Source: Dokdonella sp. (lineage in GTDB: Bacteria > Pseudomonadota > Gammaproteobacteria > Xanthomonadales > Rhodanobacteraceae). Taken from it: a stretch of 64,000 bases of DNA. Made by a program: the position numbers and the translations under genes. Each line of letters starts with the position of its first letter. Within the stretch, counting starts at the first letter, position 1. The stretch is taken from contig JAHCAR010000011.1 in assembly GCA_019634795.1 (NCBI GenBank), positions 58,349 to 122,348 of the forward strand. The letters are read 5' to 3'. The notes under the pieces are model-generated. The model was not told the DNA's origin. It was given only the letters and a program-made list of their open reading frames with translations, and made no database searches. Below are positions 41,964-64,000 of the stretch, piece by piece.

Positions 41964-42086
41964 GTAATGGATGTCCCGAATTGCCCGGATGTCCCGAATT
42001 GTCCGCGACTCGACTGTTTCCGTGCCGGCGCCAGCTTGGGGCATCCGGCGCTTTCAGTCGAAATCATGGGTGTCACCGATTGCGCC
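41964..42086. repeat. REP-like repeat cluster
   Basis: Three copies of the dispersed element occur: AATGGATGTCCCGAATTG (41966-41983), CCGGATGTCCCGAATTG (41984-42000) and AATCATGGGTGTCACCGATTG (42062-42082). They belong to the family with core TGGGTGTCCCGGAT that becomes frequent from here to 63.3 kb. The gap 41827-42138 contains no recognised gene. Confidence 0.6.
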
Positions 42087-42138
42087 GATTGCGATTTCCG
42101 ACCAGGGGGAGGGCAACCAAGCAACTGCGCGGCACGTA

Positions 42139-42708
42139 TCAGTGGTAGGAAGAGGGTGTAAGCTCCAATTCGCAGACTATCAGCAGCAAGCCATACAGGC
42201 CTGTAATCGAAATCTGCAAAGGCCGCCGGGAGACGAAAAACAGCCAAAGGGGAAGAATGGCGAGAGCGACCAGCATCGTGCCCTGCGCGCTCAGCAAATT
42301 CTCCGACCACCAGACTGCGTCGGCAACACAGGCGAGTGCGTTGTAGAGTGCGAGCGCGAGCAAAGAGAGCCGGCCATCGCGTTCGAACCCGATGCGTAGC
42401 GCAAGATCCTGCTTGCGCGGTTCGTAGGGCAGGACCAGCGCTGCAGCAACGAAGAGCAACAACGGCATCGAAAGCAGGAGCAGGAAATTTCCCAGAGTCC
42501 AGACGCTCATGGTCGTGGATAGCTCGATGATGCTCCACCAAAACTGGATTTGCGCGACGAAGACGAACGCCGCCCATGCCACAGGCAGAAAGTCGAATTC
42601 AAAATCCCTGCGGTTGCGAAGAATCATCACAGCGGAACTGAGCAGGCGCGTGACGCCGATGCCGAGAACCATCGAAATTGCGACGGCTATCCACCTGAAT
42701 GAATCCAT
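42139..42708 (-). CDS. Hypothetical membrane protein
   Basis: 189 residues with about six hydrophobic segments (WIAVAISMVLGIGVTRLLSS, FLPVAWAAFVFVAQIQFWW, LLLLSMPLLLFVAAALVL, GTMLVALAILPLWLFFV). The family is not recognised. A KQDLALRIGFERDGR loop is the longest soluble part. It is bordered by REP-like repeats on both sides. Confidence 0.62.
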   Translation of the reverse strand: MDSFRWIAVAISMVLGIGVTRLLSSAVMILRNRRDFEFDFLPVAWAAFVFVAQIQFWWSIIELSTTMSVWTLGNFLLLLSMPLLLFVAAALVLPYEPRKQDLALRIGFERDGRLSLLALALYNALACVADAVWWSENLLSAQGTMLVALAILPLWLFFVSRRPLQISITGLYGLLLIVCELELTPSSYH

Positions 42709-43173
42709 GTTGCAGCCTTCTCCTGGCGCCGCTCAGAGGCGGTACCGAATCAAATTCTCGCGCTGGCGCTCCATGCGCATGGGGCAATGGAGTGTGGCAA
42801 CTATACCTTCGTCAGGCGTCCCGGGAACGATTTGTGGGTGCCCCGGATCGACGCCCCGCATCGACGCCCGATCGAGGTGACCTGGACCACTGATCAGACT
42901 CACCCGTTTTCGCGGCGATGCGCGAACGTCACGAAACCGACTGCCGTGATGACCAGAAACCACGAGACTGCCAGGCAATGGAAATCAGGATCGGGATTGG
43001 CTGCCTTGGTGTTCGGAGCGTGCTTCAGGTAGCTCAGCATGGTGGCGGGGTCGATCCGCACGACGGAATGTGGAAGCGCGACATCCAGGATCGCGCGCGA
43101 ACTGGTGTCATGATCACACTTTGACTCTGCGTGGGTCTGCATCATCCATGGTTCACAACCGGGGTTGTTCTCA
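42709..43173. repeat. Gap with two REP-like elements
   Basis: The flanking genes are divergent. Two copies of the dispersed repeat are seen: TTTGTGGGTGCCCCGGATCG at 42831-42850, and its reverse-type form GCGCGACATCCAGGATCGCG at 43077-43096. A minus-strand frame ending at 42900 has one hydrophobic helix (FHCLAVSWFLVITAVGFVTF) and may be a gene remnant. I do not call it as a gene. Confidence 0.5.
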
Positions 43174-45105
43174 ATGTCGCAGCAATGCCGACGCGATCTT
43201 GCATCGCGGGTCCTTATTCTTGTCTTGTGTCTTGTTTCAACCTCCATTCGTGCCGCTGATGTTCCCGATGCGGCCCTCCGCGGATCCACTGTTGTCGTGG
43301 TGCGCGTCGAGGGACTGGCGCTGGGTTCCGAGGTTCAACTGGGTCGGGCCGGCGAGCTGCTCACCGCGAACCTGAATGATGAATACCGCTTTGCCGCTCC
43401 AGCGTTGCCGGGGTCGGCGCTGGGTATCGAGGTGGTTGCACAGCCACCGGGTCAGACCTGCGCGATTTCGAATCTCGCACCTGGCACGGTGCCGGCCGAT
43501 TCGTCGCCGGTGTTCGTCCGTTGTCTCAGCATTCCCGGCGCCTCGGTTGTCGTTCCGGAAACGTTACCCGGAGGTCCGCTGCGCGTACTGCGCGGCGAGT
43601 CCGCCGTGCGCGGCATCGCCTATCCTGGGCTGCCGTATGAATCGAGGCTGGGCGTCGTCGGTGGCACCTTTCCGTATGAGTTTCGGATTATCTCGGTGAC
43701 CATGGGCGGCACGCCGATGCCGCCCTCCAGCGTGTCGATCGATTTCCGCCACGGCACCTTGCGTTTCACCCCTGCGACCGAGACGTCGGTCGCGATCGAG
43801 GTCGAGATCCGAGACAGCGCGACGCCCCAGCGCTTGCTGACCCACAGTATCGCCATCGACGTTGCAACTGCCCCATTCGTATTCGTCGCAGAGGATGGAA
43901 TCGACAGCGCGGGCCGGGGCAGTCTCGAACAGCCGTATCGCACCCTGGGCTATGCCTTGCCCCGGACCAGCCCCACTCAGGCGATCATGTTGCGCCGGGG
44001 AAGCTACCTGACCGGCGGCATCATGATCGGCGATACGCATGCGAAGACGATCCTGGCCTACCCGGACGAAGTGCCGGAGATCGATCTGGACTACGCCGGC
44101 TCGATCACGGTCCGCATCGACCAGTTGCCCGGGGCGCGCCTCGAAGGTCTCGATATCCGTCACGTCCAGCAATACGGCATCTTCAGCGATCCGAGCACTC
44201 CGGGTCTGGTCCTGCGCCACCTGCGCTTCGTCGAGGGCCGTGAAGGATCGACACCGAGCGAGAATCCGGCCTTTGTGCATGGTCGAGGCGATACGGGAAG
44301 CAACTCGCGCCACGCCCTGATCGTGCAAGATTCCGATTTTGGTCCGTTCCAGATGCTGAGCTCGGGTGCCTTTGCGTTCACCTTGTTCGATGCCGGCGAT
44401 TCGCTGATCGAGAACAACCAGATCCGTCTCGGCGCGACCTCGGGTGGCATCCACGACAAGGACAACTCGCAGGGGAATACCTATCGCGAAAACTACATCG
44501 CCTTCTCGGCGGCGAACGCGACCGCGGCTGGCATTGCCGTATCAGCGCAATACAACTCCATCGATGTCCATATCCATCACAATCTTCTCGTCAATGCAGG
44601 CGTGCGTCTCGGAGTGCAGTGCTTCCAGGAAGTCTGCTACATGCGCAACCATGACGTCCACCACAACACGCTCGTCGGTGCCGGCCTGACCTTCAGCTGG
44701 GGGGTGTTCAACCCGACCAGCTTCGGAAGCCGCTTCAGCCACAACATCGTCAGCAGCGGAAGCGGGGCTCCCTACGCGTGGCATTCCTGCCTCGGCAGCG
44801 TGCCGACCGCATTCGACACGCAACTCGACATTGGTGAAAACCTGATCGAGACGACGAGTTCGCTCGCCATGCGCGATACCGAATGCGGTGGAGGCCCGAT
44901 GAACATGAGCTGGCCGACTTGGCGCGACACGCACGGAATGGATACGACAGAGTCCGGCAGTATCGTCACTGCAACAACCGCACTGACCGGATCCGGACCG
45001 ACCCTCGGATTGCCGGCCACCGACCCGCGTCGTCCGGCGTTGGGGCACCTCTATCAGCCGGCTCCGACGCTGGTTGACATGATTTTTGCCGACGGCTTCG
45101 AGTAG
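43174..45105 (+). CDS. Secreted parallel beta-helix protein with C-terminal IFADGFE tag
   Basis: About 643 residues. The ATG at 43174 begins an N-terminus with an export helix (RVLILVLCLVSTSIRAADV). The first 230 residues look like Ig/cadherin-type domains. From about residue 240 the sequence VAEDGIDSAGRGSLEQPYRT, then IMLRRGSYLTGGIMI, is the start of a right-handed beta-helix of the pectate-lyase type. It includes rungs such as DSLIENNQIRLGATSGGIHD and DVHIHHNLLVNAGVRLG. The protein ends in VDMIFADGFE, the tag also seen on other secreted proteins here. Catalytic residues are not evident; polysaccharide binding or cleavage is an inference. Confidence 0.82.
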   Translation: MSQQCRRDLASRVLILVLCLVSTSIRAADVPDAALRGSTVVVVRVEGLALGSEVQLGRAGELLTANLNDEYRFAAPALPGSALGIEVVAQPPGQTCAISNLAPGTVPADSSPVFVRCLSIPGASVVVPETLPGGPLRVLRGESAVRGIAYPGLPYESRLGVVGGTFPYEFRIISVTMGGTPMPPSSVSIDFRHGTLRFTPATETSVAIEVEIRDSATPQRLLTHSIAIDVATAPFVFVAEDGIDSAGRGSLEQPYRTLGYALPRTSPTQAIMLRRGSYLTGGIMIGDTHAKTILAYPDEVPEIDLDYAGSITVRIDQLPGARLEGLDIRHVQQYGIFSDPSTPGLVLRHLRFVEGREGSTPSENPAFVHGRGDTGSNSRHALIVQDSDFGPFQMLSSGAFAFTLFDAGDSLIENNQIRLGATSGGIHDKDNSQGNTYRENYIAFSAANATAAGIAVSAQYNSIDVHIHHNLLVNAGVRLGVQCFQEVCYMRNHDVHHNTLVGAGLTFSWGVFNPTSFGSRFSHNIVSSGSGAPYAWHSCLGSVPTAFDTQLDIGENLIETTSSLAMRDTECGGGPMNMSWPTWRDTHGMDTTESGSIVTATTALTGSGPTLGLPATDPRRPALGHLYQPAPTLVDMIFADGFE

Positions 45106-45289
45106 GGAGCAGCCGCGCAGAGCTTGCATGACGAGGCAGATTTCGCAATCCGCTCGGGCGTGATTCCGCCAGATTTCTTTGCAACGAGTGGACGATTTCC
45201 CGCGGACACGGCGCAGTCCCGGCGCCACGCGAACCTCGCCTTTTTGCCGCGCGCCTGTTAATCCGCCTACAGTTCAAATCAGGTGAATC

Positions 45290-47000: not shown

Positions 47001-49367
47001 TCAGAACGCGTCCTCGAAGCCATCCACAAAGATGCAATCGGCCGAACAGTCAATGCGATGGTTGCTGTACAGCACGCCCCGGCCGTTGCCGGCGACGTAG
47101 ATCCGTCCGTACAGGTTCTGGTCGGCCGCGATCACGCCGATGCCGCCGAACTGGTGCGCATCGTCGTTGAAGCGCGTCCAGGTCATGCCGCCGTCGTCCG
47201 AGCAGTACACGCCCCACACGCCATCGACCACGCCGACCACGTAGATCGCGGCCGAGTAGCTGGCGCCGGGCGCCGACTTGCCCAGCGCGACCGCCGTGGC
47301 GCCTTGCACATCGGGCCAGGGGTTGCTGCCCCAAATGGAGGCAAAGGTGCTGAGATCCTGCCAGGTCGCGCCGGAATCCGTCGAGTGGTACACGGCATTG
47401 CCGTCGACCAGCCACAGATCGCCCTCGGCATTCGGGTTGACCGCCAGAGAGGTGTCCTCAAAGTAGTTGGCCGCGAGTCCCGTCGCCACCGTGCTCTGCG
47501 TGAAAGTGTGTCCGCCGTCCGTCGAGACGTAGACCTTGCCCTCCGTGCCCCACCAATGGCCACCCGAATCGTAGGCATACACCTTGTTCGGATTGACGCG
47601 ATCCGCGGCCAGGTGATAGCCACGGCCAATGCCTGTTCCAATACTGGGAAGCGTCGGCAGATTGGTCGGCGTCCAGGAGGCGCCGTTGTTCGTGGTATAG
47701 GACGGCACGGAGTTGGCCGGCGCCCACACCACGTTGTTGGGTGCGGTAACGGCGATGCTCGCCGTGTAGCTCGGGTTCGTCACGGCGTCTGAAGGCAAGT
47801 TGGCGAACGCCGTCCATGTCTGGCCGCCATTGCTGGACCAGAAGCCATAGGCGCTGTTGTTGTTCCAGTTCGCCGCGCCGATGGTGACGACATACTGCGA
47901 ATTCGACCACGCCACGTCGGCGGCGAAACCGCTGTTCCAGTTGGGGTCCGGGCCGAGCGTCGGTGTCGTCGCGAGGTTCGTGTGAACCCAGGTGCCGATG
48001 TCGCCCGCACTATTGATCACCTTGTAAGTCGCTGAACCGGCCGGTGGCGTGACCAGCCATGCGACGGCGTTCTCCTCGATGCCGTCGACGACGCCGTTCC
48101 AGGTCGGCGACGTCGAGGAGGCATTGCGGGTTTCCATGACGCCGCCGCCGTGGACGTGCAGGATGTGGTCGGGGTCGGACGGATCGATCTCGATGTCGTC
48201 GACCCAGCCCGAGGCGATTTCGCCGGACGTCGCCGCTTCGATCTCGTGCCAGGTGAGGCCGGCGTTGTCGGACAGTTGCACGATCTGCTGGCCGGTGTAG
48301 TTGCCCCAGGTGCCGCTCACGCCCAACGCGATACGCGTGGTCGCGCCGCTGCCGTGCACCGACACGCCGCCGTAGCCGCCGGCACTGGTGCTGGCGAGCA
48401 GGGTCCAGGTGCTGCCGTCGAATTGGTAGAAGTGGCCGGGGCCGCCGTCACCCGGGCCGGTGCCCTGCGTGAACGCCACGTAGAACAGGCCGTCCGCGGC
48501 GCGCACCATATGCGGGATGTGGTAGCCCGATACCGGGGTCGGGACCGGACTCCACGACGCACCACCGTTGGTGGACATGTAGAGGTTCGAGCTGAGACCG
48601 GCCACGCTCACATAGTCGGGTGCGACAGCGGCGTAGATCGTCGGGGTCGCGGTTCCGGTGCCATGGGTCCCGGTGTCGTAAACGACCAACTCGACGCCCA
48701 TCGCGCTGCCGCCGGCAGCGCTGATCTGCGCAGCGGTCATCTGGACGCTCGACAGTGACGTGACCTGGGCCCAGGTCTGGCCCGAGTCGGCGCTCTTCCA
48801 CAGGCCGGCAGTGCGCGAACCGTAGAACAGGATCGACGGCTTGTTCGGATCGACCATCATGCGCTCGCCGATGGCGCGGCCCGGATTGTTGGCCCCGGTC
48901 GAGAACGGCAGGTTGACGGATGTCCAATGATCGCCGCGATCGCTGGAGATGTAGAGGCGCGCGGTCGCGCCGTCCGAGTTGTACAGACCCGTGCTCATGT
49001 AGACCCGCTGGTCGTCGTTGGGATCCAGCGCGATGCTCTCGGCGCCCTGGAAAAAGCTCTCGGCGGCACCGAAGCCGTCGGTGGTCGGCTTCCACTTCGA
49101 GTTGCTCTGGTCCCAGCGATAGGCGCCGCCGATGTCGGTGCGTGCGTAAAGCAGATTGGCCGTCGTCGGGTGGAAGATCAGGCCGGTGACGTAGCCGCCA
49201 CCGCCGATCTTCGCGTTCGACCAGGTGGTGATCCCGGCCGTACCTGAGCCCCTGGAGTCACCAGCGGAACCGAAACTGCCGGTTGTGCTACCGCCTGCGC
49301 TGCCTGCCAGAAGGATCGCCGCGAGGAATGAAAGGACAATGAGTGGTTTGCTGTACTTGATCATCAT
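47001..49367 (-). CDS. Secreted GH74-type glycosidase (xyloglucanase-like) with GFE tag
   Basis: 788 residues. A signal peptide (LIVLSFLAAILLAGSAGG) is followed by two beta-propeller-type halves. The GH74 hallmark is the start NAKIGGGGYVTGLIFHPTTA, followed by LLYARTDIGGAYRW with the catalytic aspartate near residue 78. A second conserved aspartate lies in KVYAYDSGGHWWG near residue 598. BNR/Asp-box repeats (SSDRGDHWTS, SADSGQTWAQ, STDGGHTFTQ, STDSGATWQD) are frequent. These enzymes cleave xyloglucan. There is no separate carbohydrate-binding module. The protein ends CIFVDGFEDAF, the shared C-terminal tag. No other glycosidase is adjacent. Confidence 0.87.
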   Translation of the reverse strand: MMIKYSKPLIVLSFLAAILLAGSAGGSTTGSFGSAGDSRGSGTAGITTWSNAKIGGGGYVTGLIFHPTTANLLYARTDIGGAYRWDQSNSKWKPTTDGFGAAESFFQGAESIALDPNDDQRVYMSTGLYNSDGATARLYISSDRGDHWTSVNLPFSTGANNPGRAIGERMMVDPNKPSILFYGSRTAGLWKSADSGQTWAQVTSLSSVQMTAAQISAAGGSAMGVELVVYDTGTHGTGTATPTIYAAVAPDYVSVAGLSSNLYMSTNGGASWSPVPTPVSGYHIPHMVRAADGLFYVAFTQGTGPGDGGPGHFYQFDGSTWTLLASTSAGGYGGVSVHGSGATTRIALGVSGTWGNYTGQQIVQLSDNAGLTWHEIEAATSGEIASGWVDDIEIDPSDPDHILHVHGGGVMETRNASSTSPTWNGVVDGIEENAVAWLVTPPAGSATYKVINSAGDIGTWVHTNLATTPTLGPDPNWNSGFAADVAWSNSQYVVTIGAANWNNNSAYGFWSSNGGQTWTAFANLPSDAVTNPSYTASIAVTAPNNVVWAPANSVPSYTTNNGASWTPTNLPTLPSIGTGIGRGYHLAADRVNPNKVYAYDSGGHWWGTEGKVYVSTDGGHTFTQSTVATGLAANYFEDTSLAVNPNAEGDLWLVDGNAVYHSTDSGATWQDLSTFASIWGSNPWPDVQGATAVALGKSAPGASYSAAIYVVGVVDGVWGVYCSDDGGMTWTRFNDDAHQFGGIGVIAADQNLYGRIYVAGNGRGVLYSNHRIDCSADCIFVDGFEDAF

Positions 49368-49615: not shown

Positions 49616-49700
49616 ATGACATCCATGCACTACATCTGGATGACCGTCATGTGACAGACATCCAACCCAATCCATGCGACATCCACGAATCCGACAATTG
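49616..49700. repeat. REP-like elements upstream of the RAYT pseudogene
   Basis: Several degenerate copies in the reverse orientation are seen, for example TGACATCCATGCAC (49617-49630) and GCGACATCCACGAATCCG (49676-49693). They sit just before a degenerate form of the GTAGGAGATTTCCTAC palindrome near 49712-49728. The gap 49368-49762 contains no other recognised feature. Confidence 0.5.
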
Positions 49701-49762
49701 CCTGCGCTCGATGTCGGAAGTTTCCTGCAGACACGAGGCGGTTCTTACGCCACGTGACTCGC

Positions 49763-50330
49763 ATGACCACTGCCCGCAGCCACCTCGTCGATCTGCACGC
49801 GCGCGACTTCTGCCACTGCATCTCGCGCTGCGTGCGCTGTGCGTTACTGTGCGGAATCGATCTGCACGACGGAAAGTCCCATGAACATCGGCGCGAGTGG
49901 GTCGAGCATGGCCTGCTCGAACTGGCCGGGCTCATTGCCGTCGGCATTCATGCCTATGCCGTGATGAGCAGACATTTGCATGTCGTGCTCAGGATCGATC
50001 CGCTGACTGCGGAGGCACGGAGCCCGGAAGAGGTAGCGCGTCAATGGTCCACCTGCTTCTCGCCACGCAGGATGGCGAAGCCAATGAAGCGGGCCATCTC
50101 GTAGATGACGAGACGCTTCTGTGCAATGCCGATCGTCTCGCTCTCTGCCGTCAACGGCTCGGCAGCCTTGCCTGGTTCATGCGCAGCCTCAATGAGTCGA
50201 TCGCACGCCGGGCGAATCGCCAAGCCGCCTGAACAGGACGCTTCTGGGAAGGGCGCTACAAATGCCAGGCCTTGCTCGGTGACGCTGCCGCACTCTCCTG
50301 CACAAGCTGCGTGCATATGGCGCGCGCATG
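49763..50330 (+). pseudogene. REP-associated tyrosine transposase-like gene, frameshifted and truncated
   Basis: From the ATG at 49763 the product matches the intact copy at 59808 (TTARSHLVDLHARDFCHCIS, GIDLHDGKSHEHRREWVEH, AYAVMSRHLHVVLRIDP). Near 50050 the reading shifts frame. The match then continues in another frame with LCNADRLALCRQRLGSLAWF and MRSLNESIARRANR, meets an in-frame TGA at 50229-50231, goes on as GRFWEGRYKCQALL, and is lost near 50315. The last third is missing. The HxH pair of the HUH motif is kept as RHLHVVL. It is non-functional as read. Confidence 0.85.
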
Positions 50331-50346
50331 CATAGACACCAAATCA

Positions 50347-50566
50347 CGTTCAACCGAGTACGGGCAACCTGATGGATGAAATAGTCAGCGTTCCTGAGAA
50401 GAGCCCTGTCGGTACAAGTGCCATGAGTACGCGTGGGTGTTTGGGCCCCTCAGGATCGAAGCCCATCACGGCGCGAGGCGCATCCAGCCTCAACCACGAC
50501 GCCGAATAGTTGTCCGAGCAAAGCAACCCTTCGTCGCGATGGCTTGACCAGGAGGAGGCGTCAATA
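50347..50566 (+). repeat. Module B, copy 1
   Basis: This 220-base block matches 61196-61418. Shared stretches include CCTGAGAAGAGCCCTGTCGG, ACGCGTGGGTGTTTGGGCC, CTCAGGATCGAAG, CATCACGGCGCGAGGCG and, at the end, GGAGGAGGCGTC. It directly follows the RAYT pseudogene. Differences between copies are not biased to third codon positions and one copy has a stop in the longest frame, so it does not behave like a coding gene. The rest of 50331-50746 holds nothing else recognised. Confidence 0.75.
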
Positions 50567-50746
50567 GATCTCTCGGTTGTCGCGTGGGTGTGCCGGGTGT
50601 AGAGCGTTCGTCGGACAATGCGCTTTGGTACGCCACAAAGGGCGAATTCCGCTGCGGTGCAGTGTGTTGGGTCAGGTTTGCACCGGGCTCGACGGCAGGT
50701 TCTGCCACCACTCTGCCCGGATCAACCGGACGACAAATACCATCAC

Positions 50747-53700
50747 CTATTCCACCCCCACCCACCCCGTTCCCGTAACCAGCAACCGCCAATCCTCCGA
50801 TCGCGAATCCTTCAAATCCAGGTTCGCGGCAAGATAGTGCAAGCGCTGCGTATCAACAATCGGCGTGCCATTGGCATGGGCAGCGGTGCAGTAGCGATCC
50901 TGCTGGTAGAACGGCGGAATCGATTGGTAGTAGAGCGTTGCGCTGACGCGGGCGGGTTTGTGCCCGAGATCGCGGACGACATAGAGGATGTGGTCCGTGC
51001 CTGATCCGTTCTGGTAATCCGGATCGTCGGCGGCTTCGCCTTCGGGGCCGACCGCTACGCCGAGGTTTTCGTCCATCGGGAAGGTGCCGGGAGGGTGAAT
51101 CGGCGTCTTGTCTCCGAGGGCTGCGGCGATGGCGATGCGCTCGGCTTCTGGCAGAAAACCATGCGGTTGCAGTCGATTGTCTTTCGGGTGCGCGTTGATG
51201 CCCAGGAAACTCGTGGTCAGTTCGCCGGCGGCATTGGTGATGAGCTCCTGATAGATCTGCACCTGGTTCTGTGCGTCGATCGTCTGATAGTGCGGCTGCC
51301 AGGCATTCGGCAGGCGAGCGCTGCAATCCGGCGTCCACCAGAACTCGCCAGCGACCGGCTGGCGGTTCTGATCGATAAGGGTGCCTGCCCCATTGCTGCG
51401 TCCCGATGCCCACAGCAGCTTGCCCTCACCGTCTTCCACCTTGAATTCGATGAAAGCGCGACGGAAGCTGACACCGGAAGGAAATTTGTGTCCGGCGAGA
51501 TTATCGAGACTGACCTCGGCGTTCAGCACGCCGCTGCGCGCATCCCACTTCGGCGTGACGGCAAGTTTGACCGTGTGCTGATCGGCCTGTTGAACCATGG
51601 CGTTCTCGGTCACCTGCAACGGCGCCACCGCCATGTTGCCCACTCCCGGCCCCTGCGAGCGGATGCCGAGTACTTGCGGGAACTGCTGCGCCATCTCGAT
51701 CAGGAACGTATTGAGTCCGACGAGCTGATGCTGGGCGTAGTTCTCGCGCAGCGGGAGATCGATCGCTTCGGCGGGAAGGCGATAGTCGGTCTGCGGATAG
51801 TTGCTGTATTCCTCGATCGAGGCGATCTTGCTGACCAGCGGCTTGCCGGTGGAATCGGTGTTCGGCATATGGCACTGCTGACAGCTCAATGGCGTCGCCC
51901 CGGCGCCGCCCGGTAGTTCCTGAGAACCGAGCTTGCCGGTGCGATAGGCGCTGAATACCCATTCGGGATAGGTGGTCTGCTCGTAGCGCTTGGGGAAGCA
52001 ACGGAACGGATCGGGCGGGTCGGTCTGCGGCAGGCACTGCGCCTCGGGTTGCTCGCGATCGAGCACCGGCAGATGGATGCTGTGGCAGGCGCCGCAGACT
52101 TCCGAGGTCTGGATATCGGCGTTGTGCTTGGGCGTCACGCGCAGCGAATTCTCCATTGGCTTGGTCAACGGATCCTTGAAGGGACCGTTCAACTCATCGG
52201 CCGCGCCGACCGGAAAGCTGCCGCTGAACGTGGCCGCGAATCCGGTGAAGGTTGGATTGAGACTCTTCTGCTTTTGCGTAATGCAGGTGTTCCAGGGGGA
52301 ATCGGCAACTTTCGCCGCCTGCTCGTTCAAGGCCAGTTGATGACAACTGCTGCACGAAATTCCATCGCGTGCAAGTCCGGCGTAGCTGGCCTGCTGGGCC
52401 AGATGCGGCCAGCTTCGATCGTCGTTTGGGAACGGAACGACATTCAGGTCCTCGCGCGAGAACTGGCCGCACGCTCCGGTCTCGGCGTGGTTGTCGATCG
52501 CGCGCTGACGCTGGCCCATGTTGCCGTGGCATTGCAGGCAGGTATCCTGGATTACCGCGCGCGTCGCGGCCTTCTGTTTGGACGAAGCCTGCTTGTTCAT
52601 GTCGGCGTGCAGGATCTGCTCGCTTTCAAGCTGGGCGAAGAAGATCGGATCGCGCCCGGCCAGGCCCATGGGCGAACTGCTCCATTGCGAATACGGCGCG
52701 ATATTGACCGGTTTGCCGTCGCCATTCACACCGAGTGGACCCGGCGTGAAATCGAGCATGTCGAGCTGCAGGCCGGTGCCGTTGGCCTGGTGGCAGCCGA
52801 CGCACTGGGTCGAACTCATGAAATGATCCAGCGGACCCTGCCCCGAGATCAGCACGCTGTCGTAGGTTTGCGAGGGCATATTGTTCGGTACCGTCGGCAT
52901 CGATGAATGCTTCGACTGCGCGCGATCATGCGCCGCGATGCCGGGTGTGCCGCCAAAGGTATGCAGGAATTCCGCATTCGGCGCGGGCAGGGCTCCGTCG
53001 ACCGGAACCAGCTTGGCCAGCGGAATCGCGTTCTCGCGGTGATGATCCGGAATCGATGCCGGATCAAAGGTCGACATCGGCGGCAACTGCGTGACAAAGG
53101 TTGCCGGATGCCCGGTGATGTTGTTGATCGAGGCAAACGTGTTGCCGGAGACGGTCGAACCATGGCAGTTCATGCAGAAGCCCTGTCCGCCATCGCCCAT
53201 CGAGGTCAGCGGATTGCTCGATGCCGCGGGCCAGTCGAGCTTGCCACCCTGGCCCCACCAGCCGGTGAACCAGCCCGTTGCGAAGCTTTTCGAATCGCGT
53301 ACGAAGATCACCGCGCCGCTCGTACCGGGGGCCATGCAGTCGAAGCAATCGCCGTTGTACAGCGAGCGCGGCGATGGCCACATTTCCTTGACCATGATTG
53401 CGCCATCCGGAACCGGCGGCGGATTCGGCGGCGCGGAACCTTCGTCGGCGGGATGGTTCTTGCGCATCCACTCGAACATTTCGGGCGAATACCAGACCCG
53501 CGCCACCACATGCGTGCTCAGGGCCTGCGAGACGAACTTGCCACCCTCGAAGCGCGTGAAGAACGGCCCGGTATCGCGCGCGGTCGCGTCATGTTGCCAC
53601 GCGTAATCGTTGCCGTCGCTGCGCAACCGCCGATAGCAGAAGTTCTCCATCCACTCGGAGACGATGGGTTCATAGCGATTGAGTCGGATCTGATCACCGG

Positions 53701-53890
53701 CGACGAATGCGCCGGGTGTCTTGAGCTGCGCCTCCAGCTGGAGGCAGCGCGCAGGATTCTTCGCGACCACGCGTGAACACTGGGATTCGACCGCACAGCT
53801 TGGCGGCGAATCCGCGAATGTCATCTGTGAAATGCAAACCGAGGATGCAGCCGTTGCAGCCGCCAGGAAGAATCGTATCCAAGTGCGCAT
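50747..53890 (-). CDS. Secreted hexaheme cytochrome c with P460-like N-terminal region
   Basis: A 1047-residue protein with a signal peptide (FFLAAATAASSVCISQMTFA). Six CxxCH heme sites are seen: CMNCH (about residue 238), CVGCH (361), CLQCH (452), CSSCH (512), CGACH (598) and CQQCH (669). The region before the first heme (FTRFEGGKFVSQALS, DGAIMVKEMWPSPRSLYNGD) resembles cytochrome P460-type proteins. The last 350 residues are heme-free and look like beta-sandwich domains (AEVSLDNLAGHKFPSGVSFR). It should act in the periplasm or on the surface as an electron carrier or oxidoreductase. The substrate is unknown. Confidence 0.85.
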   Translation of the reverse strand: MRTWIRFFLAAATAASSVCISQMTFADSPPSCAVESQCSRVVAKNPARCLQLEAQLKTPGAFVAGDQIRLNRYEPIVSEWMENFCYRRLRSDGNDYAWQHDATARDTGPFFTRFEGGKFVSQALSTHVVARVWYSPEMFEWMRKNHPADEGSAPPNPPPVPDGAIMVKEMWPSPRSLYNGDCFDCMAPGTSGAVIFVRDSKSFATGWFTGWWGQGGKLDWPAASSNPLTSMGDGGQGFCMNCHGSTVSGNTFASINNITGHPATFVTQLPPMSTFDPASIPDHHRENAIPLAKLVPVDGALPAPNAEFLHTFGGTPGIAAHDRAQSKHSSMPTVPNNMPSQTYDSVLISGQGPLDHFMSSTQCVGCHQANGTGLQLDMLDFTPGPLGVNGDGKPVNIAPYSQWSSSPMGLAGRDPIFFAQLESEQILHADMNKQASSKQKAATRAVIQDTCLQCHGNMGQRQRAIDNHAETGACGQFSREDLNVVPFPNDDRSWPHLAQQASYAGLARDGISCSSCHQLALNEQAAKVADSPWNTCITQKQKSLNPTFTGFAATFSGSFPVGAADELNGPFKDPLTKPMENSLRVTPKHNADIQTSEVCGACHSIHLPVLDREQPEAQCLPQTDPPDPFRCFPKRYEQTTYPEWVFSAYRTGKLGSQELPGGAGATPLSCQQCHMPNTDSTGKPLVSKIASIEEYSNYPQTDYRLPAEAIDLPLRENYAQHQLVGLNTFLIEMAQQFPQVLGIRSQGPGVGNMAVAPLQVTENAMVQQADQHTVKLAVTPKWDARSGVLNAEVSLDNLAGHKFPSGVSFRRAFIEFKVEDGEGKLLWASGRSNGAGTLIDQNRQPVAGEFWWTPDCSARLPNAWQPHYQTIDAQNQVQIYQELITNAAGELTTSFLGINAHPKDNRLQPHGFLPEAERIAIAAALGDKTPIHPPGTFPMDENLGVAVGPEGEAADDPDYQNGSGTDHILYVVRDLGHKPARVSATLYYQSIPPFYQQDRYCTAAHANGTPIVDTQRLHYLAANLDLKDSRSEDWRLLVTGTGWVGVE

Positions 53891-54062: not shown

Positions 54063-54130
54063 GCGGGACATCCAGGATTCCGGCTCGCTCCTGGTTTCAG
54101 GTCAAATCGTGGGCGAGCCCGATCGGCGCT
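54063..54130. repeat. REP-like elements between cytochrome and TauE genes
   Basis: GCGGGACATCCAGGATTCCG (54064-54083) is a reverse-type copy of the dispersed element. A degenerate copy reading CAAATCGTGGGCGAGCCCGA starts near 54103. The remainder of the gap 53891-54287 has no recognised gene. Confidence 0.6.
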
Positions 54131-55415: not shown

Positions 55416-55547
55416 GGGGGCATTCCGCGGCGAATGGAGAGAGGGTGATCCCCGATTATCGCATCATGCAGAGGGTCGGACGCTTGGACGCCGATGGCCT
55501 TACCCCGCAGTGTAGGAATTTGGCTACTCCCTGAGTGGTCCATTGAC

Positions 55548-55744
55548 GAGATTGTGGATGTCCAGAATCGCGTCGCCACCAGCGAGAAGACGACTACCAC
55601 TGATCGTCGAATTTGGCGTGACCTTGTCGCCGATCCGGGTACGGAAGTCCTGGCTGTTACCCCTCCCGTATCGGGCTCTACGCGTAGGAAATTGCCGATT
55701 GGGCAGGTAGGAGATTGTAGGGATTGTGGATGTCCCGGATCTCC
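55548..55744. repeat. REP-like elements and GTAGGA palindrome units
   Basis: GAGATTGTGGATGTCCAGAA (55548-55567) and GGGATTGTGGATGTCCCGGA (55720-55739) are copies of the dispersed element. Between them lie TCCTGGCTGTTACCCCTCCC (from 55648), which recurs at 57284, and GTAGGAGATTGTAGGG-type sequence near 55708. The gap 55416-56571 holds these repeats and module A; I recognise no gene in it. Confidence 0.65.
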
Positions 55745-55748
55745 TCGC

Positions 55749-55918
55749 GAGGATGGAGCGCGGGCGGTGTCGGAGAATCGGTCGCCCGCTTGTCGAATGG
55801 CGGTTGATGGAGCGCCAGAAAACGCCGATCTGGGCCAATTCGCACTGCTTACGATCCGAGCCGACGCCGGATTCTGCGGTCAGGTGATCTCGGACCAAAT
55901 TGTGGGTGTCCCGGATCG
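55749..55918 (+). repeat. Module A, copy 1
   Basis: This 170-base block matches 57485-57650 and 60830-60997. Shared stretches are GAGGATGGAGCGCGG, CGGTGTCGGA, GTCGCCCGCTTGTCGAATGG, CGCCGGATTC and the terminal REP-like ATTGTGGGTGTCCCGGAT. It is the only copy not preceded by RAYT gene sequence. Confidence 0.8.
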
Positions 55919-57150: not shown

Positions 57151-57257
57151 TCTCCCGCACCATTTTCGGCGCCGTGTCGGAGCATCTTGTCCGGCACGGC
57201 CGCTCGATTCTGCGGGTCGATGGCGCCTGTTCGTCGTGGACGTGTGGATAGCGAGAA

Positions 57258-57310
57258 GCGGGACATCCATGATTCCGCTGGCATCCTGGCTGTTACCCCT
57301 CCCGGATCGG
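57258..57310. repeat. REP-like element with shared flank
   Basis: GCGGGACATCCATGATTCCG (57258-57277) is a reverse-type copy. The following TCCTGGCTGTTACCCCTCCC (57284-57303) is the same flank seen near 55648. The element abuts the RAYT 3' remnant. Confidence 0.65.
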
Positions 57311-57311
57311 A

Positions 57312-57447
57312 CTCGGCACCGAAACCAACTACTGGCGAGCCATCGGCTCGGCCCAGGCCTTGCTCGAGAAGGCCGTGGCGATGGGGCAGGGCCGGCTCAA
57401 GGGCATTGGGACTGCTCAGCGGCTATTGCGACCGCAGCCAGCCTCAC
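57312..57447 (+). pseudogene. 3' remnant of a RAYT gene
   Basis: The last 45 codons of the intact RAYT at 59808-60791 are repeated here almost unchanged (TNYWRAIGSAQALLEKAVAM). The stop codon is mutated (CCTCACTC in place of CCTGACTC). The similarity continues without a break into module A copy 2. The rest of the gene is absent, being replaced at the left by a REP-like element. Confidence 0.85.
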
Positions 57448-57484
57448 TCACACCGCCAGGACCACACGACAATTCGGGTTCTCC

Positions 57485-57650
57485 GAGGATGGAGCGCGGA
57501 CGGTGTCGGAAAATCAGTCGCTCGTTTGTCGAATAGGGCTTGCTGGAACGCCGGAAAGCACCAATTTTGGCCAATTCGCATTGCTTACCAGCCAAGCCGA
57601 CGCCGGATTCGGCAGTCGGGCGATCTCGGGGACCGAATTGTGGGTGTCCG
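57485..57650 (+). repeat. Module A, copy 2
   Basis: This block matches 55749-55918 and 60830-60997 and ends with GAATTGTGGGTGTCCGGG. It follows a RAYT 3' remnant in the same order as at 60830. Its right half encodes, on the other strand, the last 20 residues of the membrane protein at 57585-58988. Confidence 0.8.
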
Positions 57651-58988
57651 GGTTGTTTGCGCCCGTGAACGCACCACGTGATTCATACTCTTGGCGCCAC
57701 GCAAGATCATCGCAATCCCAAATACTATCTGCAGGAGCAACACTGTCCACACAGCGTAAGGGACGTCACTCAACGATTCAGGCTCTTCAGTCAAAACCAA
57801 TCCTGTGGCTACTGGTTGCGACAGGTTGTAGAGCATCGCTGCCTCACCCAGTAGCGGTGCGTTGAGGCTATCGGACAGCAACATCGGAACGAGCAAACGA
57901 CCGTTTGGTAGTGGCCAACTGGCCGCGATGGCCTGAAGGGACAATTTGCGCGCTTTGCGGGTGTCGCCCATGCTCCGGGTGGCACCGATGCCAAAGGCAC
58001 TGGCGGATGTGCCCAGTCCTCCAACAACAGGCCCCGAGTCAACATCCATCTCGAACCAAGGTTGATCAAGCTGATCGTATTCCCGATATCCCGCAAGCCA
58101 GCCCGAGGGTTGCCAGAAACGACGGTTGTGCGCCGAAAACCAAAGTCTCGCAGCATCGGGCCAAAGAAAGGGTGCGTGATGCAACAGCCAAGCATTGGCG
58201 GAACCGCGCACCGGCGTTGCAACAATGGGATCGCCAAACCACGCGTAGGGTGGCAACTCGCCATCCGGTGCCATAGTGCCGACGAAGCCGCGAATCGCGG
58301 TCTTGGCCATTTCGTCGTGGTCAGTACCCAGAAACTTATCGGCCCGGCGGATCGCATGCCAGGCCGCAGCTACATCGGCCGGGAAGGTCTGTTGCGGATA
58401 ATCGGCAAGCAGGCCATTTGCCGACTCAGCGAGTTCGGTGGCTAGCCCGGTGACTTGCTCGCGGAGCAGATCCGCATGAGGTGTCGATCCGAGCAGGCTC
58501 CATTGGCTCGCCAGCCCATCGATCAACAGCATGCGATAGAACACGTTCTCCTTTTTTATGTAATCCGATTTACCCCAATGGCGTACAACCCAATCCGCCT
58601 GAGCCGGATCAGCGAGCAAATCCGCAGCAGCATCAATTGCTCTGCGCGCATATTTCGAAGGCTGTTCGCCGCGAGGCGATCGTTGCCAAGCCTGATCCAG
58701 GTTTTCAGTGGCCCGCAAGTAGTAGACGGCGCCAAACAGTGGCCACTCGGTCCCGGAGATGTTGTTCAGCGACAGATGCTTCGCTGCGTCATTGGAGCGG
58801 CGCGCTCTGGCCCACTTCTCAAAAGCCGGAGTAAGTGCCCGGTGCCAGCGCCAGGATTGCGCAGCCGGTTCCGGGCCGCCGAGTGATGAATCACGAATTG
58901 CCTCAACCAGCGAGCCACCCGCCCAAACAAATAGGAATCCCAAAATCATGAGCGCGGCGCCAAGAAGGAAACGCAATACGCGGCGCAT
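57585..58988 (-). CDS. Large membrane-anchored protein of unknown function
   Basis: About 467 residues. The start at 58988 has GGAG 8 bases upstream (GGAGATTGCCTTATG). One N-terminal membrane helix (FLLGAALMILGFLFVWAGG) and one C-terminal helix (VWTVLLLQIVFGIAMILRG) flank a soluble, helical, Trp- and Ala-rich middle (WRWHRALTPAFEKWARA, FLWPDAARLWFSAHNRRFW, PWFEMDVDSGPVVGGLGTSA). The middle looks like an alpha/alpha barrel, but I do not recognise the family. The last 20 or so residues (TPTIRSPRSPDCRIRRRLGW) are encoded by module A copy 2, so the original 3' end was probably replaced by the repeat. Confidence 0.72.
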   Translation of the reverse strand: MRRVLRFLLGAALMILGFLFVWAGGSLVEAIRDSSLGGPEPAAQSWRWHRALTPAFEKWARARRSNDAAKHLSLNNISGTEWPLFGAVYYLRATENLDQAWQRSPRGEQPSKYARRAIDAAADLLADPAQADWVVRHWGKSDYIKKENVFYRMLLIDGLASQWSLLGSTPHADLLREQVTGLATELAESANGLLADYPQQTFPADVAAAWHAIRRADKFLGTDHDEMAKTAIRGFVGTMAPDGELPPYAWFGDPIVATPVRGSANAWLLHHAPFLWPDAARLWFSAHNRRFWQPSGWLAGYREYDQLDQPWFEMDVDSGPVVGGLGTSASAFGIGATRSMGDTRKARKLSLQAIAASWPLPNGRLLVPMLLSDSLNAPLLGEAAMLYNLSQPVATGLVLTEEPESLSDVPYAVWTVLLLQIVFGIAMILRGAKSMNHVVRSRAQTTRTPTIRSPRSPDCRIRRRLGW

Positions 58989-59151
58989 AAGGCAATCTCC
59001 AGTCGCCAAAACAATATCAAAGTACACTCGCGCCATGAATGCTCAGGAAGCGGAATGTTCACAAGATTCGCGCTTGGCAAGCGCGCCATCGGGTGACGGC
59101 ATCAACACATGATTGATTCTGGTCATTCGCATGCCAGTTCGCAATCCTTGG

Positions 59152-59223
59152 CAGTTTGTGGGTGTCCCTGTAATTGCCTTCCATATCAATTGATGGGTGT
59201 CCCGGATCGTGCCGCGGATCGGG
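59152..59223. repeat. Two REP-like elements
   Basis: CAGTTTGTGGGTGTCCCTG (59152-59170) and AATTGATGGGTGTCCCGGAT (59188-59207) are forward copies, the second one followed by CGTGCCGCGGATCGGG. They lie just past the 3' end of the truncated secreted-protein gene. Confidence 0.7.
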
Positions 59224-59246
59224 TACCACCGCACGAATCAGGCAGT

Positions 59247-59715
59247 TCAATCGAAGCCATTGCGGAACAGGCTCTCGATCAAGGTCGTGCGTGCAAAGTT
59301 ATTGATCGTGTTGGGCTCGCTGAGGCTATTCGGACCATAGGTGCCGACGCCGAAGTAGTTGGTCTCCTCACCGGCCAGAGCGTGCACGACGCCATCAACT
59401 GTTACAGAGCCTCCGGGTTGAACGTCGAAAGTGACATCGAGGCCGCCAAAACGACTATCGACGACGCAATTGCTCGCATTGATCGTCGAGCACGTCAGCG
59501 CGCTGACGCCGCTCTGCCAAGGTAGATAGCCGAGCAGGTGCGCAGCCGTGATCGGCAGGTCTCCAGAGTAATTGACCGTCATATGGAAACCTACGGCTTG
59601 ACCGGCGGTGGCAACGCTGTCGTCGACACTCAGGCTGGTAGACAAGTCGCCGTGCTGTGTAATCGTCATGTCGACTAACGCCGCGCCAGTAGTCGCCGAG
59701 AGAACGCAGCGAGAG
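59247..59715 (-). pseudogene. 3' remnant of a DUF11-like secreted protein with GFD tag
   Basis: About 150 codons are left. They read SATTGAALVDMTITQHGDLS, then TAGQAVGFHMTVNYSGDLPI, then WQSGVSALTCSTINASNCVV and end TTLIESLFRNGFD. This is a DUF11-type surface domain with the C-terminal GFD tag. Upstream of about 59700 the frame runs through a REP-like element (NYRNHGCPAFS) and then antisense through the RAYT gene. The true 5' part, including any signal peptide, is gone. The RAYT/REP insertion at 59719-59808 is the likely cause. Confidence 0.72.
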
Positions 59716-59718
59716 AAC

Positions 59719-59773
59719 GCAGGACATCCATGATTCCGGTAATTCCCTACGCGCCAAGTAGGAGATTTCCTAC
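59719..59773. repeat. REP-like element and palindrome just upstream of the RAYT gene
   Basis: GCAGGACATCCATGATTCCG (59719-59738) is a reverse-type copy of the dispersed element. GTAGGA-GATT-TCCTAC (59758-59773) is a palindrome with 6-base arms. A degenerate form stands at the same distance before the RAYT pseudogene at 49763, so it belongs to the element's 5' end. Confidence 0.7.
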
Positions 59774-59807
59774 AGACAAGGCGCTGCCCTGACGCCACGC
59801 TGCGGGC

Positions 59808-60791
59808 ATGACCACGGCCCGCAGCCAGCTCGTCGATCCGCACACGCCCGGCTTCTATCACTGCATCTCCCGATGCGTGCGGCGGGCGTGGCTGTGCGGG
59901 ATTGATCCGTACGATGGAAAGTCCTATGAACATCGGCGGGAATGGGTCGAGCAGCGCCTGCTCGAACTGGCCGGGATCTTTGCCGTTGGCATCCAGGCCT
60001 ATGCCGTGATGAGCAACCATGTGCATGTCGTGCTGAGGATTGATCCGCTGACCGCCGCGGCCTGGAGCCCGGAAGAGGTCGCGAGCCGTTGGGTTCGCCT
60101 GTTTCCGGCCATGCAGGAGGGCGAAGTCGATGAGGCGGGTTGCCGGCTGAAGGAAGAGACGCTCTTGGGCCATGCCGATCGCCTCGCCGTTTGTCGACAA
60201 CGCCTGGGCAGCCTGGCCTGGTTCATGCGCAGCCTCAACGAACCGATCGCACGCCGGGCCAATCGCGAAGACGCCTGCACGGGCCGCTTCTGGGAAGGCC
60301 GCTACAAGTGCCAGGCCCTGCTCGATGATGCCGCCGTGCTCACCTGCATGTGCTATGTCGACCTGAATCCGATCCGGGCCGGTATTGCCGAGAACCTCGA
60401 GTCATCGATCCACACCAGCGCCCATCATCGAATCGCGACCCTTCGCGAGAATCCCGATCGCGCGCAACAGCCGCTGGCCTCGATCCGAACCGCCGTGGCG
60501 TCCGGCTTGGCTTCCATCACTACCGAAGACTACCTCGACCTGATCGACTGGACCGCCCGGCTCACCCGGGCCGACAAGCGCGGTCGCATCGAGGCGAACG
60601 AACCGCCCGTACTGCGCAAGCTCGGCCTGAGCGAACGCCAATGGCATCAGCAGATGCTCGGCACCGAAACCAACTACTGGCGAGCCATCGGCTCGGCCCA
60701 GGCCTTGCTCGAGAAAGCCGTGGCGATGGGGCAGGGCTGGCTCAAGGGTATTGGGACGGCTCAGCGGCTCTTGCGACCGCAGCCAGCCTGA
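59808..60791 (+). CDS. REP-associated tyrosine transposase-like protein (RAYT, Y1/IS200-like)
   Basis: A 327-residue HUH-type protein. The HUH motif is NHVHVVL (His71, His73). Other family marks are GFYHCISRCVRRAWLCG, WVEQRLLELAGIFAV, GRFWEGRYKCQALLDDAA and CYVDLNPIRAG with Tyr182. The helix that carries YxRYxN with the usual catalytic tyrosine in many RAYTs reads LNEPIARRANR here. It is flanked by REP-like elements on both sides and followed by module A copy 3. RAYTs are domesticated relatives of IS200 transposases thought to move REP sequences. Two more, damaged, copies are in the window. Confidence 0.85.
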   Translation: MTTARSQLVDPHTPGFYHCISRCVRRAWLCGIDPYDGKSYEHRREWVEQRLLELAGIFAVGIQAYAVMSNHVHVVLRIDPLTAAAWSPEEVASRWVRLFPAMQEGEVDEAGCRLKEETLLGHADRLAVCRQRLGSLAWFMRSLNEPIARRANREDACTGRFWEGRYKCQALLDDAAVLTCMCYVDLNPIRAGIAENLESSIHTSAHHRIATLRENPDRAQQPLASIRTAVASGLASITTEDYLDLIDWTARLTRADKRGRIEANEPPVLRKLGLSERQWHQQMLGTETNYWRAIGSAQALLEKAVAMGQGWLKGIGTAQRLLRPQPA

Positions 60792-60829
60792 CTCACGACA
60801 CCAGGGCTACACGACGAATCGGGTTCTCC

Positions 60830-60997
60830 GAGGATGGAGCGCGGGCGGTGTCGGAAAATTGGTCGCCCGCTTGTCGAATGGCGCTCGCCGGAGCGCCAAA
60901 AAACGCCGATTTAGGTCAATTCGCATGGCTTACGAGCATAGCCTTCGCCGGATTCGGCAGTCAGGCGATCTCGGACCAAATTATGGGTGTCCCGGGT
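60830..60997 (+). repeat. Module A, copy 3
   Basis: This block starts 40 bases after the intact RAYT gene and matches copies 1 and 2. It ends in a REP-like ATTATGGGTGTCCCGGGT. Similarity with copy 2 extends leftwards through the RAYT 3' end, so RAYT 3' end plus module A moved or duplicated as one unit. Confidence 0.8.
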
Positions 60998-61008
60998 CGT
61001 GCGCTTGC

Positions 61009-61165
61009 GCAAAGCCGGTGGCTGCTTGCTCTGGTCGACCGTCGCGGCAAGAACAAGGCGACCGTCGCGCTGGCCAACAAGATGGTGCGCATCGTCTGGG
61101 CCGTTCTTGCGGGTGGCACGACCTACGATCCGCGCAAAGCCTTCCGTCCACAGCCTGCGCGCTAA
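61009..61165 (+). pseudogene. 3' remnant of an IS110-family transposase
   Basis: The frame reads WLLALVDRRGKNKATVALAN, then KMVRIVWAVLAGGTTYDP, and stops at 61163-61165. The ALANKMxRIxWAxLxxG ending is characteristic of IS110 (Transposase_20) C-termini. Everything upstream is module A and REP sequence, so the first 300 codons are missing. Module B copy 2 begins 30 bases downstream. Confidence 0.75.
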
Positions 61166-61195
61166 GCGAACTGCACACATCGAACCCCTTAAACC

Positions 61196-61418
61196 GCGTC
61201 AACCGAGTCCGGCCAACCTGATGAATGAAACGGTCACCGTTCCTGAGAAGAGCCCTGTCGGGACAAGTGCCATGAGCACGCGTGGGTGTTTGGGCCACTC
61301 AGGATCGAAGCTCATCACGGCGCGAGGCGAATCCAACCTCAACTACGACGCCGAATATATGTCCGAGCACCGCTCCTCTTCATCGCGATGGCTTGACCTG
61401 GAGGAGGCGTCCATATAT
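61196..61418 (+). repeat. Module B, copy 2
   Basis: This block matches 50347-50566 over its whole length and ends with AGGAGGCGTCC (61402-61412), which runs into a REP-like ATGTCCCGGATCG. The same AGGAGGCGTCC occurs at 63432-63442 just before the IS110 5' fragment. Because it follows the IS110 3' remnant here, it may be the non-coding right end of that element. A further degenerate REP (GTGGGTGCCCCGGACTGCGG) lies at 61443. The rest of 61419-61709 shows no gene. Confidence 0.7.
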
Positions 61419-61709
61419 GTCCCGGATCGCGTTCGAAGGAAAGTGGGTGCCCCGGACTGCGGGTCTAGCACGTACGAAAAACAAAAACAAGCTGTAACAA
61501 GTGACAGCTATCACAATATGGTAAGCAAGACTAGCCTGTGCAGTGAATAGGCGGTCACAGTTCGTTTCGGCCAAATGTCCTGATCGGACGAACTACCAAG
61601 TTGGTCGCGAGAGTGACCCGATTCAAGAGCGCTTCGAAACTCGCGCCTATTCCCCCTGGTCCCTCGGCGGTTCGCCGCGGAAACATCAGTTGGAAATCGG
61701 AGGTTACCT

Positions 61710-62783: not shown

Positions 62784-62952
62784 CTGCCAGTTTTAGCTGG
62801 ATCTTGTGCACGCAAGATTCTTCTAGCATTTGAAGAGAGATATTCGTTGACCCGAGAGGGCGCGAATTCGAGACTGCGCTCCGCCAGTGTCCGGGAAATC
62901 GGGGGTGGCTCATGGTGGTCCCGTTCTTTTCCAAATCAACGTAGAGTGCAAT

Positions 62953-63255
62953 ATGGCTAAGTGGGCAGATTACGGCATTTCAGCTGTCCGGTACAATGCG
63001 GCACACACGCATCTCGACCGAGTGCGGGCGCATCCAGACAACGGGGACACTATTGGTGCTGCTACGGAATATGAGCGGGCGACCATCGTCAAAGCGATCA
63101 AGGACGGGTATAGCTTCGTCACCATCGTTTCGAGCGGCGGCAGCTGGCAGAAGGGGCAGCCGGTCTATATCATCATGGTCAATGGGGTCGAGTACCTCAA
63201 GACCGTAGACAACGGGCAGGCCAGAGACAACCTCGAAAACCTGCCGGAGTTCTGA
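62953..63255 (+). CDS. DUF3892 family protein
   Basis: A 100-residue protein. The pattern ADYGISAVRYNAAHTHLDRV, then ATEYERATIVKAIKDGYSF, then WQKGQPVYIIMVNGVEYLKT and the ending DNLENLPEF is the DUF3892 signature, as I recall it. The start at 62953 is the ATG nearest to the conserved N-terminus; the open frame upstream looks random. The function is unknown. It is the second gene of the cargo between IS110 fragments, 169 bases after the exported protein. Confidence 0.75.
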   Translation: MAKWADYGISAVRYNAAHTHLDRVRAHPDNGDTIGAATEYERATIVKAIKDGYSFVTIVSSGGSWQKGQPVYIIMVNGVEYLKTVDNGQARDNLENLPEF

Positions 63256-63288
63256 TCGGCTGGGAGTCAAGCTATCTTGCGCTTATAA

Positions 63289-63320
63289 GAATGCCGGGTG
63301 TCCCGGATCGTGGGCGCGCA
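63289..63320. repeat. REP-like element
   Basis: GCCGGGTGTCCCGGATCGTG (63293-63312) is a forward copy of the dispersed element, between the DUF3892 gene and the IS110 fragment. Confidence 0.65.
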
Positions 63321-63976: not shown

Positions 63977-64000
63977 GACGACACCCTAATCTGCCGCTAA

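Follow-up and report, generated by a model that had tools for sequence, protein, structure and literature searches.

We propose, with a probability of about three in four, that a scattered 14-nt repeat found between positions 41968 and 63308 of a 64,000-nt stretch of a Dokdonella sp. genome represents the terminal inverted repeat (TIR) pair of Y1 (HUH, single-tyrosine) transposons of the type of subclass 2.3 of the REP-associated tyrosine transposases (RAYTs; REP, repetitive extragenic palindrome), and that the stacks in which these ends occur were made by the transposase. The stretch, which we call the window throughout, is C3:58349–122348 (contig JAHCAR010000011.1) of a draft genome of 3.87 Mb in 51 contigs, and its end is the contig end. 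An initial sequence-only reading of the window had described the repeat as a REP family with its own RAYT. That reading is partly supported: the feature is real and well-supported, but the interpretation was one step off, the repeats being transposon ends and not REPs.

Two ends of one transposon

A single complete element is present in the window (59697–61009, + strand); it consists of a doubled outer left-end sequence, the left end (LE), a gene and the right end (RE). The gene (59808–60791, +) is intact and encodes a RAYT-like Y1 transposase of 327 aa, apparently of the subclass 2.3 type; the LE core (59721–59737, −) lies 87 nt 5' of the start codon and the RE core (60984–60997, +) 193 nt 3' of the stop codon. 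Outside the LE core, the 13-nt unit CGAGAGAACGCAG stands twice in tandem (59697–59722, −). The sequence-only reading had taken a core and its reverse form as the two forms of one REP; two forms do exist, but they are the LE and the RE of a single transposon, inverted to each other around the gene at 59808–60791.

Allowing at most two mismatches, TGGGTGTCCCGGAT matches the window 11 times, always between 41968 and 63308, compared with a mean of 0.47 and a largest count of 4 in 100 shuffles; the reverse form GGGACATCCATGATTCC, with at most three mismatches, gives 6 matches against an expected mean of 0.30. With a looser scan, a copy was found at all 17 positions listed in the sequence-only reading, 12 of them in RE orientation (TGG.TGTCC-like, + strand) and 5 in LE orientation (43083, 49681, 54070, 57265 and 59726, − strand). 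Several of these are weak, with at least three mismatches, and additional weak copies lie at 41986, 50585, 54110 and 61414. The 15 places found by the looser scan in the first 41.9 kb all had at least three mismatches and are background. The sequence-only reading had placed the copies in a putative accessory region; the G+C content is lower in the repeat-bearing stretch (0.611) than before it (0.653).

A scan of species genomes gave 133 relatives, and from the best 80 loci, together with the copies in the same genome, we read 78 full-length elements. When searched without a supplied motif, 43 of the 69 elements that could be tested showed an inverted repeat exceeding the 95th percentile of shuffles, usually at about −75 to −105 and +165 to +200. 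Core patterns were fixed from these de novo repeats and searched at −200 to −40 for the LE and +100 to +330 for the RE. The LE core was present upstream of the gene in 73/78 elements and the RE core downstream of it in 60/78, compared with 1/78 and 4/78, respectively, for the opposite-orientation controls. The cores read GGACAnCCA at the LE and TGGnTGTCC at the RE or, in Colwellia and some others, GCCAnCCA and TGGnTGGC. The same patterns were applied to a second set of 43 other elements from family genomes and plasmid or chromid records, excluding L151, L152 and L184 as repeats of first-set loci: the LE core was found in 36/43 and the RE core in 35/43 (controls, 0 and 4), although the two sets are not fully independent, as part of the second set shares its genomes of origin with loci of the first. 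In 56 elements, whose LE cores are of the GGACA or GCCA kind, the two ends covary: the LE and RE match at 467 positions, compared with 403 on average and at most 426 for permuted pairs (2000 permutations), and relatedness among the elements contributes to this excess.

Neither end is a hairpin. The 60-nt stretches at the LE and RE of the 56 elements fold like shuffled sequence (mean z of 0.1 and 0.0; coding control −0.06), whereas the LE and RE placed on one strand pair with each other (mean z of −3.2, 68% below −2), as expected of inverted repeats. The repeat is the terminal inverted repeat of a RAYT-like Y1 transposon, and the lack of a hairpin in either end sets these ends apart from REPs and from the ends of IS200/IS605 elements.

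The copies elsewhere in the genome fit the same architecture. Five full-length copies of the 327-aa gene are present, on contigs C3, C1, C48, C6 and C2 (identity 100, 96, 79, 77 and 76%, respectively), and a gene search found 16 places including fragments, with identity down to 48 and 33% in the last two. With at most one mismatch, the motif occurs 32 times in four clusters, each with one orientation: C1:121.6–130 kb, C1:597–601 kb, C3 and C50:83–91 kb. The repeat is not confined to the window locus. The clusters at C1:124 kb and on C3 contain full genes, that at the end of C1 has a C-terminal part of the gene, and that on C50 has a weak match (E = 3e-9) to the left end and the gene start. The motif follows the direction of the gene in both C1 clusters and in C3; the C50 remnant points the opposite way.

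These observations make it very improbable that the repeat is a canonical REP/REPIN family, in which a domesticated RAYT would have distributed hairpin-forming palindromes across the genome. An association with a RAYT-like gene is what such a family would show, and the short LE–RE doublets at 54065–54123 and in locus L034 are REPIN-like in outline; however, the folding test rejects the hairpin, the copies form four clusters of a single orientation each instead of a genome-wide spread, and the genome has as many as five full-length copies of the gene. A GTAGGAAATCTCCTAC-type palindrome gives the left ends of the window and C1 a REP-like look, but it is not kept in the C2, C6 and C48 copies. No conserved GTAG hairpin was found among the own-genome copies, and the window had no Rfam match at gathering thresholds. 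Separately, we noted three more RAYT-type genes in the genome (C4:63932–64369, C23:67704–68114 and C2:24692–25093), which score above the NF047646 cut-off and are outside this family; GTAGGAGCG-type palindromes adjoin the C23 copy.

The predicted protein has both the HUH motif and the Y1 tyrosine motif of the TnpA-Y1 superfamily. Among 45 aligned proteins, N70, H71, H73 and N187-P188 are invariant and Y183 is found in at least 90%; the WE motif is formed by the invariant W162 and by E163, again found in at least 90%. The AlphaFold model of the window protein (mean pLDDT 86.9) shows the Y1 catalytic fold, and its nearest PDB structure is 4er8, a RAYT (TnpA-REP), at E = 7e-5 as the sole match below 0.001; the ISDra2 and IS608 transposase entries come next (E 0.005–0.04). 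A sequence search of the PDB gave three matches up to E = 1, no transposase among them. All 45 aligned members match the NCBIfam REP-associated transposase profile at E ≤ 0.001, with the window protein below the family cut-off (34 vs 80 bits). YVDLNP is found in 75 of the 78 elements, YVELNP in 2 and neither in 1, and the HUH motif is NHVH in the window protein and its nearest relatives, the middle residue being Y, V, L, T, N, F or S among the 78. As described in the subclass 2.3 passages and Table 1 of Quentin et al. 2018 (PMC6006769), proteins of that subclass have ~325 aa, WE, YVDLNP and the NHYH form of the HUH motif, occur in several copies per genome and are prevalent in Chromatiales and Alteromonadales. 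The window protein appears to fit there: it agrees with that table in length, in the WE and YVDLNP motifs, in copy number and in host range.

Across 233 family genomes, the gene was detected in 15 (E ≤ 1e-30) and at least one motif match (≤1 mismatch) in 71, mostly one or two matches. Four or more matches were found in 8 of the 15 genomes with the gene and in none of the 218 without it (Fisher, P = 3e-11), which ties the repeat to the resident RAYT clade, as the sequence-only reading had proposed. The remaining seven gene-bearing genomes had 0 to 2 matches; in G224, the genome among these seven with the greatest number of loci read, the element cores differ from the window motif. Elsewhere, 13 of 72,556 plasmid records contained matches, while 50,697 phage records gave no match and viral contigs no relative. 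One comparison of filled and empty sites was available. Two megaplasmids of Pseudoalteromonas shioyasakiensis carry the element between their genes for isocitrate dehydrogenase and acetolactate synthase, directly after a terminator-like hairpin, whereas this gene pair occurs without the element in four further Pseudoalteromonas records (six intervals read, 2 filled and 4 empty); at 76–83%, the identity of filled and empty sites is too low to call a target site or a duplication.

Stacks of truncated ends

Many elements carry further copies of an end outside the end proper. Within 1 kb outside the RE, the first set contained 54 exact copies of the element's own 8-nt core in RE orientation and 0 in the opposite one, with at least one outward copy in 26/60 loci; outside the LE, 48 copies had the same and 1 the opposite orientation (26/73 loci). 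In the second set, the counts were 44 vs 10 on the RE side (22/35 loci) and 33 vs 2 on the LE side (19/36 loci, opposite copies in 2). Clear cases are L080, L113, L123, L103, L074 and L116, as well as L138, L141 and L145; L138, L141 and L145 come from complete plasmid records, so that the stacks are not explained by draft assembly alone.

To describe their geometry, we identified consecutive pairs of copies fully explained by one duplicated terminal fragment. In the first set, 20/102 pairs were of this kind, of which 16 units were kept after omitting four periodic ones; 11/77 qualified in the second set under the same upper limit on excess. In these 27 clean units, the outer boundary falls 4–16 nt past the 8-nt core, and in 25 of them at 9–16 nt, whereas the inner boundary varies from 0 to 182 nt (Levene, P = 1.7e-5 for the difference in spread). 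Near-identical elements at different sites share their outermost nucleotides to a variable degree, 8–10 nt in L070/L071 and hardly any in L109/L126, and the outer boundary therefore seems to be set by distance from the core more than by sequence. The excess match at the junctions was 0.5 nt over the 16 first-set units, which is about the chance level and leaves microhomology priming unsupported there.

A nearly constant outer and a variable inner boundary are hard to reconcile with replication slippage or unequal recombination acting alone, with the transposase idle after insertion, as both boundaries should then vary. The first-set junctions, lacking microhomology beyond chance, also speak against that explanation, as does the position of the repeats: in a motif-free count, direct repeats were found in the 600-nt flanks of 38/68 subclass 2.3 elements but in only 5/53 at a distance of 3 kb. 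On the other hand, some arrays, such as that of L074, are perfectly periodic and in L138 a block of several ends has been duplicated whole, which implies that slippage or recombination acts on stacks once formed, and flanking direct repeats are seen at other RAYT loci as well. As the sole origin of the stacks, we consider slippage or recombination doubtful.

The motif-free count, in whose control the calling of open reading frames (ORFs) was crude, gave flanking direct repeats at 19/26 other RAYT loci, so these repeats are a wider habit of RAYT-type loci and not special to subclass 2.3. Among seven other RAYT loci viewed, arrays of REP-like palindromes are present at L207 and L220, and the terminal repeats of L216 are doubled. 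Beside the canonical RAYT gene of L207 (G025:C1, ~1860742), the 14-nt end fragment AAGCCGTTTCCTAC is tandemly repeated several times, hinting that truncated-end stacks may occur in GTAG REP systems too.

The boundary geometry is equally expected if a newcomer inserts beside an old end and a deletion anchored at the old terminus then removes a variable part of it. In favour of such a course of events, nested and partial elements are seen at C1 (L033) and at 49676–50598 in the window. It requires two events for every unit, however, and units of ~16–30 nt are common among the clean ones. We regard this two-step route as possible, though less than probable.

Several observations weigh against the reading as TIRs with transposase-made stacks. 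The de novo search gave no inverted repeat above the threshold in 26/69 elements, an RE core was missing from the searched range in 18/78, and in Thioalkalivibrio three copies (L063, L065 and L068) seem to diverge just past the stop codon. On the RE side of the second set, the 10 opposite copies are a part of 54 outward copies and come from 4/35 loci. Clean units form a minority of the consecutive pairs in both sets, in the second even with the excess filter, and the second-set junction excess of 1.2 nt over 11 units would allow some microhomology. Finally, flanking direct repeats are not specific to the elements discussed here, since 19/26 other RAYT loci have them as well.

With the stacks taken as products of the transposase, the following course of events would account for their geometry. 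The transposase most likely recognises the short core (GGACAnCCA at the LE and TGGnTGTCC at the RE, or GCCAnCCA and TGGnTGGC) and would cut roughly 10 nt outside it. The cut terminus could then be joined, with no need for homology, to a site deeper within an end of the same molecule or of its sister; this would add a truncated copy of the end outside the old one, and the stack would grow.

One array extends this picture. At C1:597–601 kb (L034, 9300–12400), more than a dozen stacked RE copies enclose ORFs of 98, 141 and 138 aa, and the array adjoins GmrSD_N and AAA_21 genes, possible defence genes. Right ends that bound gene cassettes, the arrays serving as an integron-like store of accessory genes, would produce such ORFs between same-orientation RE copies, and the 138-aa ORF is weakly Rap1a-like, if below the Pfam cut-off. 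The case is made from one examined array, though; two of its three ORFs have no Pfam match, and the segments that bear the ORFs occur only once in the genome, so that we judge a cassette store improbable. A broader conjecture starts from the strand transfer described above: the stacks would be the record of one-ended Y1 strand transfer, each round cutting ~10 nt outside the core and joining homology-free to an inner site, and where that site lies beyond the truncated end, neighbouring DNA would be taken in, so that RE arrays like that at C1:597–601 kb, with its three small ORFs, would grow as integrase-free cassette arrays. The same might apply to other TIR-flanked RAYT groups; one such locus, L216, has doubled outer ends. 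As a whole, this conjecture is unlikely to hold.

Derivatives and neighbours in the window

If the repeats are the ends of these transposons, the window cluster then comprises a single complete element together with deletion derivatives and with ends that are stacked or stand alone. Besides the intact gene, the two damaged RAYT genes noted in the sequence-only reading were recovered, within 49678–50302 and 57312–57656. The first belongs to a damaged copy (49676–50302, +) with an LE at 49676–49692 and an N-terminal gene part in a broken reading frame; it continues at 50350–50598 (+) and ends in an RE-like core at 50585–50598. Its positions 50350–50576 have 227 nt at 89% in common with 61199–61425, which lies beyond the first right end of the complete element, as if the copied unit had once extended to a second, outer right end (49676–50598 compared with 59721–61457). 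Two outer RE-like cores are present downstream of the complete element (61414–61457, +). The second damaged gene is part of an internally deleted element (57260–57656, +) that retains the LE (57260–57276), the gene 3' end and the RE (57641–57654).

A right-end remnant (55748–55918, +; RE core 55903–55916) matches only the sequence past the stop codon and is preceded directly by two more RE cores of the same orientation, at 55555–55568 and 55727–55740 (55555–55740, +). Other RE cores are stacked as a group of three (41968, 41986 and 42067; 41968–42080, +) and a group of two (59159 and 59194; 59159–59207, +) or stand alone at 42835–42848 (+) and, near the contig end, at 63295–63308 (+). A weak solo LE core lies at 43076–43092 (−), and the short doublet at 54065–54123 (−) consists of an LE core (54065–54081) adjoining a weak RE-like core (54110–54123).

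Among the neighbours, the N-terminal part of an IS110-family transposase (63446–64000; PF01548, NF033542) starts 137 nt after the RE core at 63295–63308 and is cut by the contig end; an N-terminal query found no second copy in the genome. An apparent likeness of 61010–61162 to an IS110 C-terminus had no Pfam match and is not claimed. The predicted proteins of 43165–45105, 47001–49367 and 59247–60200 end in IFADGFE, IFVDGFEDAF and LFRNGFD, respectively, a common C-terminal motif that may be a sorting signal. By eye, the 1047-aa protein predicted at 50747–53890 (− strand) has several CxxCH motifs and is possibly a multihaem cytochrome.

Comparison with known systems

What is new here is the stack geometry and the ends themselves, in a subclass described as having no REP-like flanks; in searches of open-licence literature, from which most subscription papers are missing, we found no earlier description of these ends. 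The proposal would supply the ends that had been reported as absent from this subclass, the longest of the RAYT subclasses and among those with the most copies, and definable termini make subclass 2.3 look like ordinary mobile elements. With known ends and a naturally repeated boundary, RAYT-type binding, cutting and strand transfer become directly testable, and the stacks would explain one way in which short tandem repeats recurrently arise in Gammaproteobacteria.

The likeness to subclass 2.3 as characterised in these passages of PMC6006769 lies in protein length, WE, YVDLNP, multi-copy occurrence and hosts. The difference lies in the flanks: the automatic and manual searches reported there found no REP-like sequences beside subclass 2.3 genes, whereas we find conserved inverted ends and stacks. 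The nearest precedent is TIRYT/TIRtron, described in the relevant part of Di Nocera et al. 2013 (PMC3733652) as RAYT-like genes flanked by TIRs. As there, the elements described here have a RAYT-like gene between TIRs unrelated to REPs, and in that account too TIR repeats occur in dimers or clusters. The motif GGGGWSAS, shared by some TIRYT/TIRtron TIRs, however, is absent from the GGACAnCCA or GCCAnCCA core, and the corresponding passage of Quentin et al. (PMC6006769) puts 20 of 26 TIRYT/TIRtron proteins in subclass 2.1.

RAYTs with REPs and bacterial interspersed mosaic elements (BIMEs), as outlined in the parts of Nunvar et al. 2010 (PMC2817692) that concern their structure, share with the present elements a related transposase flanked on either side by inverted repeats. 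A REP combines a GT(A/G)G head with a palindrome, and REPs alternate in orientation within BIMEs, whereas the ends here are hairpin-free and follow each other head to tail. REPs also usually number >100 per genome and are spread genome-wide, compared with 32 matches in four clusters here. With the IS200/IS605 elements IS608 and ISDra2, the window protein has the Y1 HUH catalytic fold in common; according to the same passages of PMC2817692, that family has no terminal inverted repeats, and the comparison in PMC6006769 attributes subterminal hairpins to it, whereas the elements described here have terminal inverted repeats and ends free of such hairpins.

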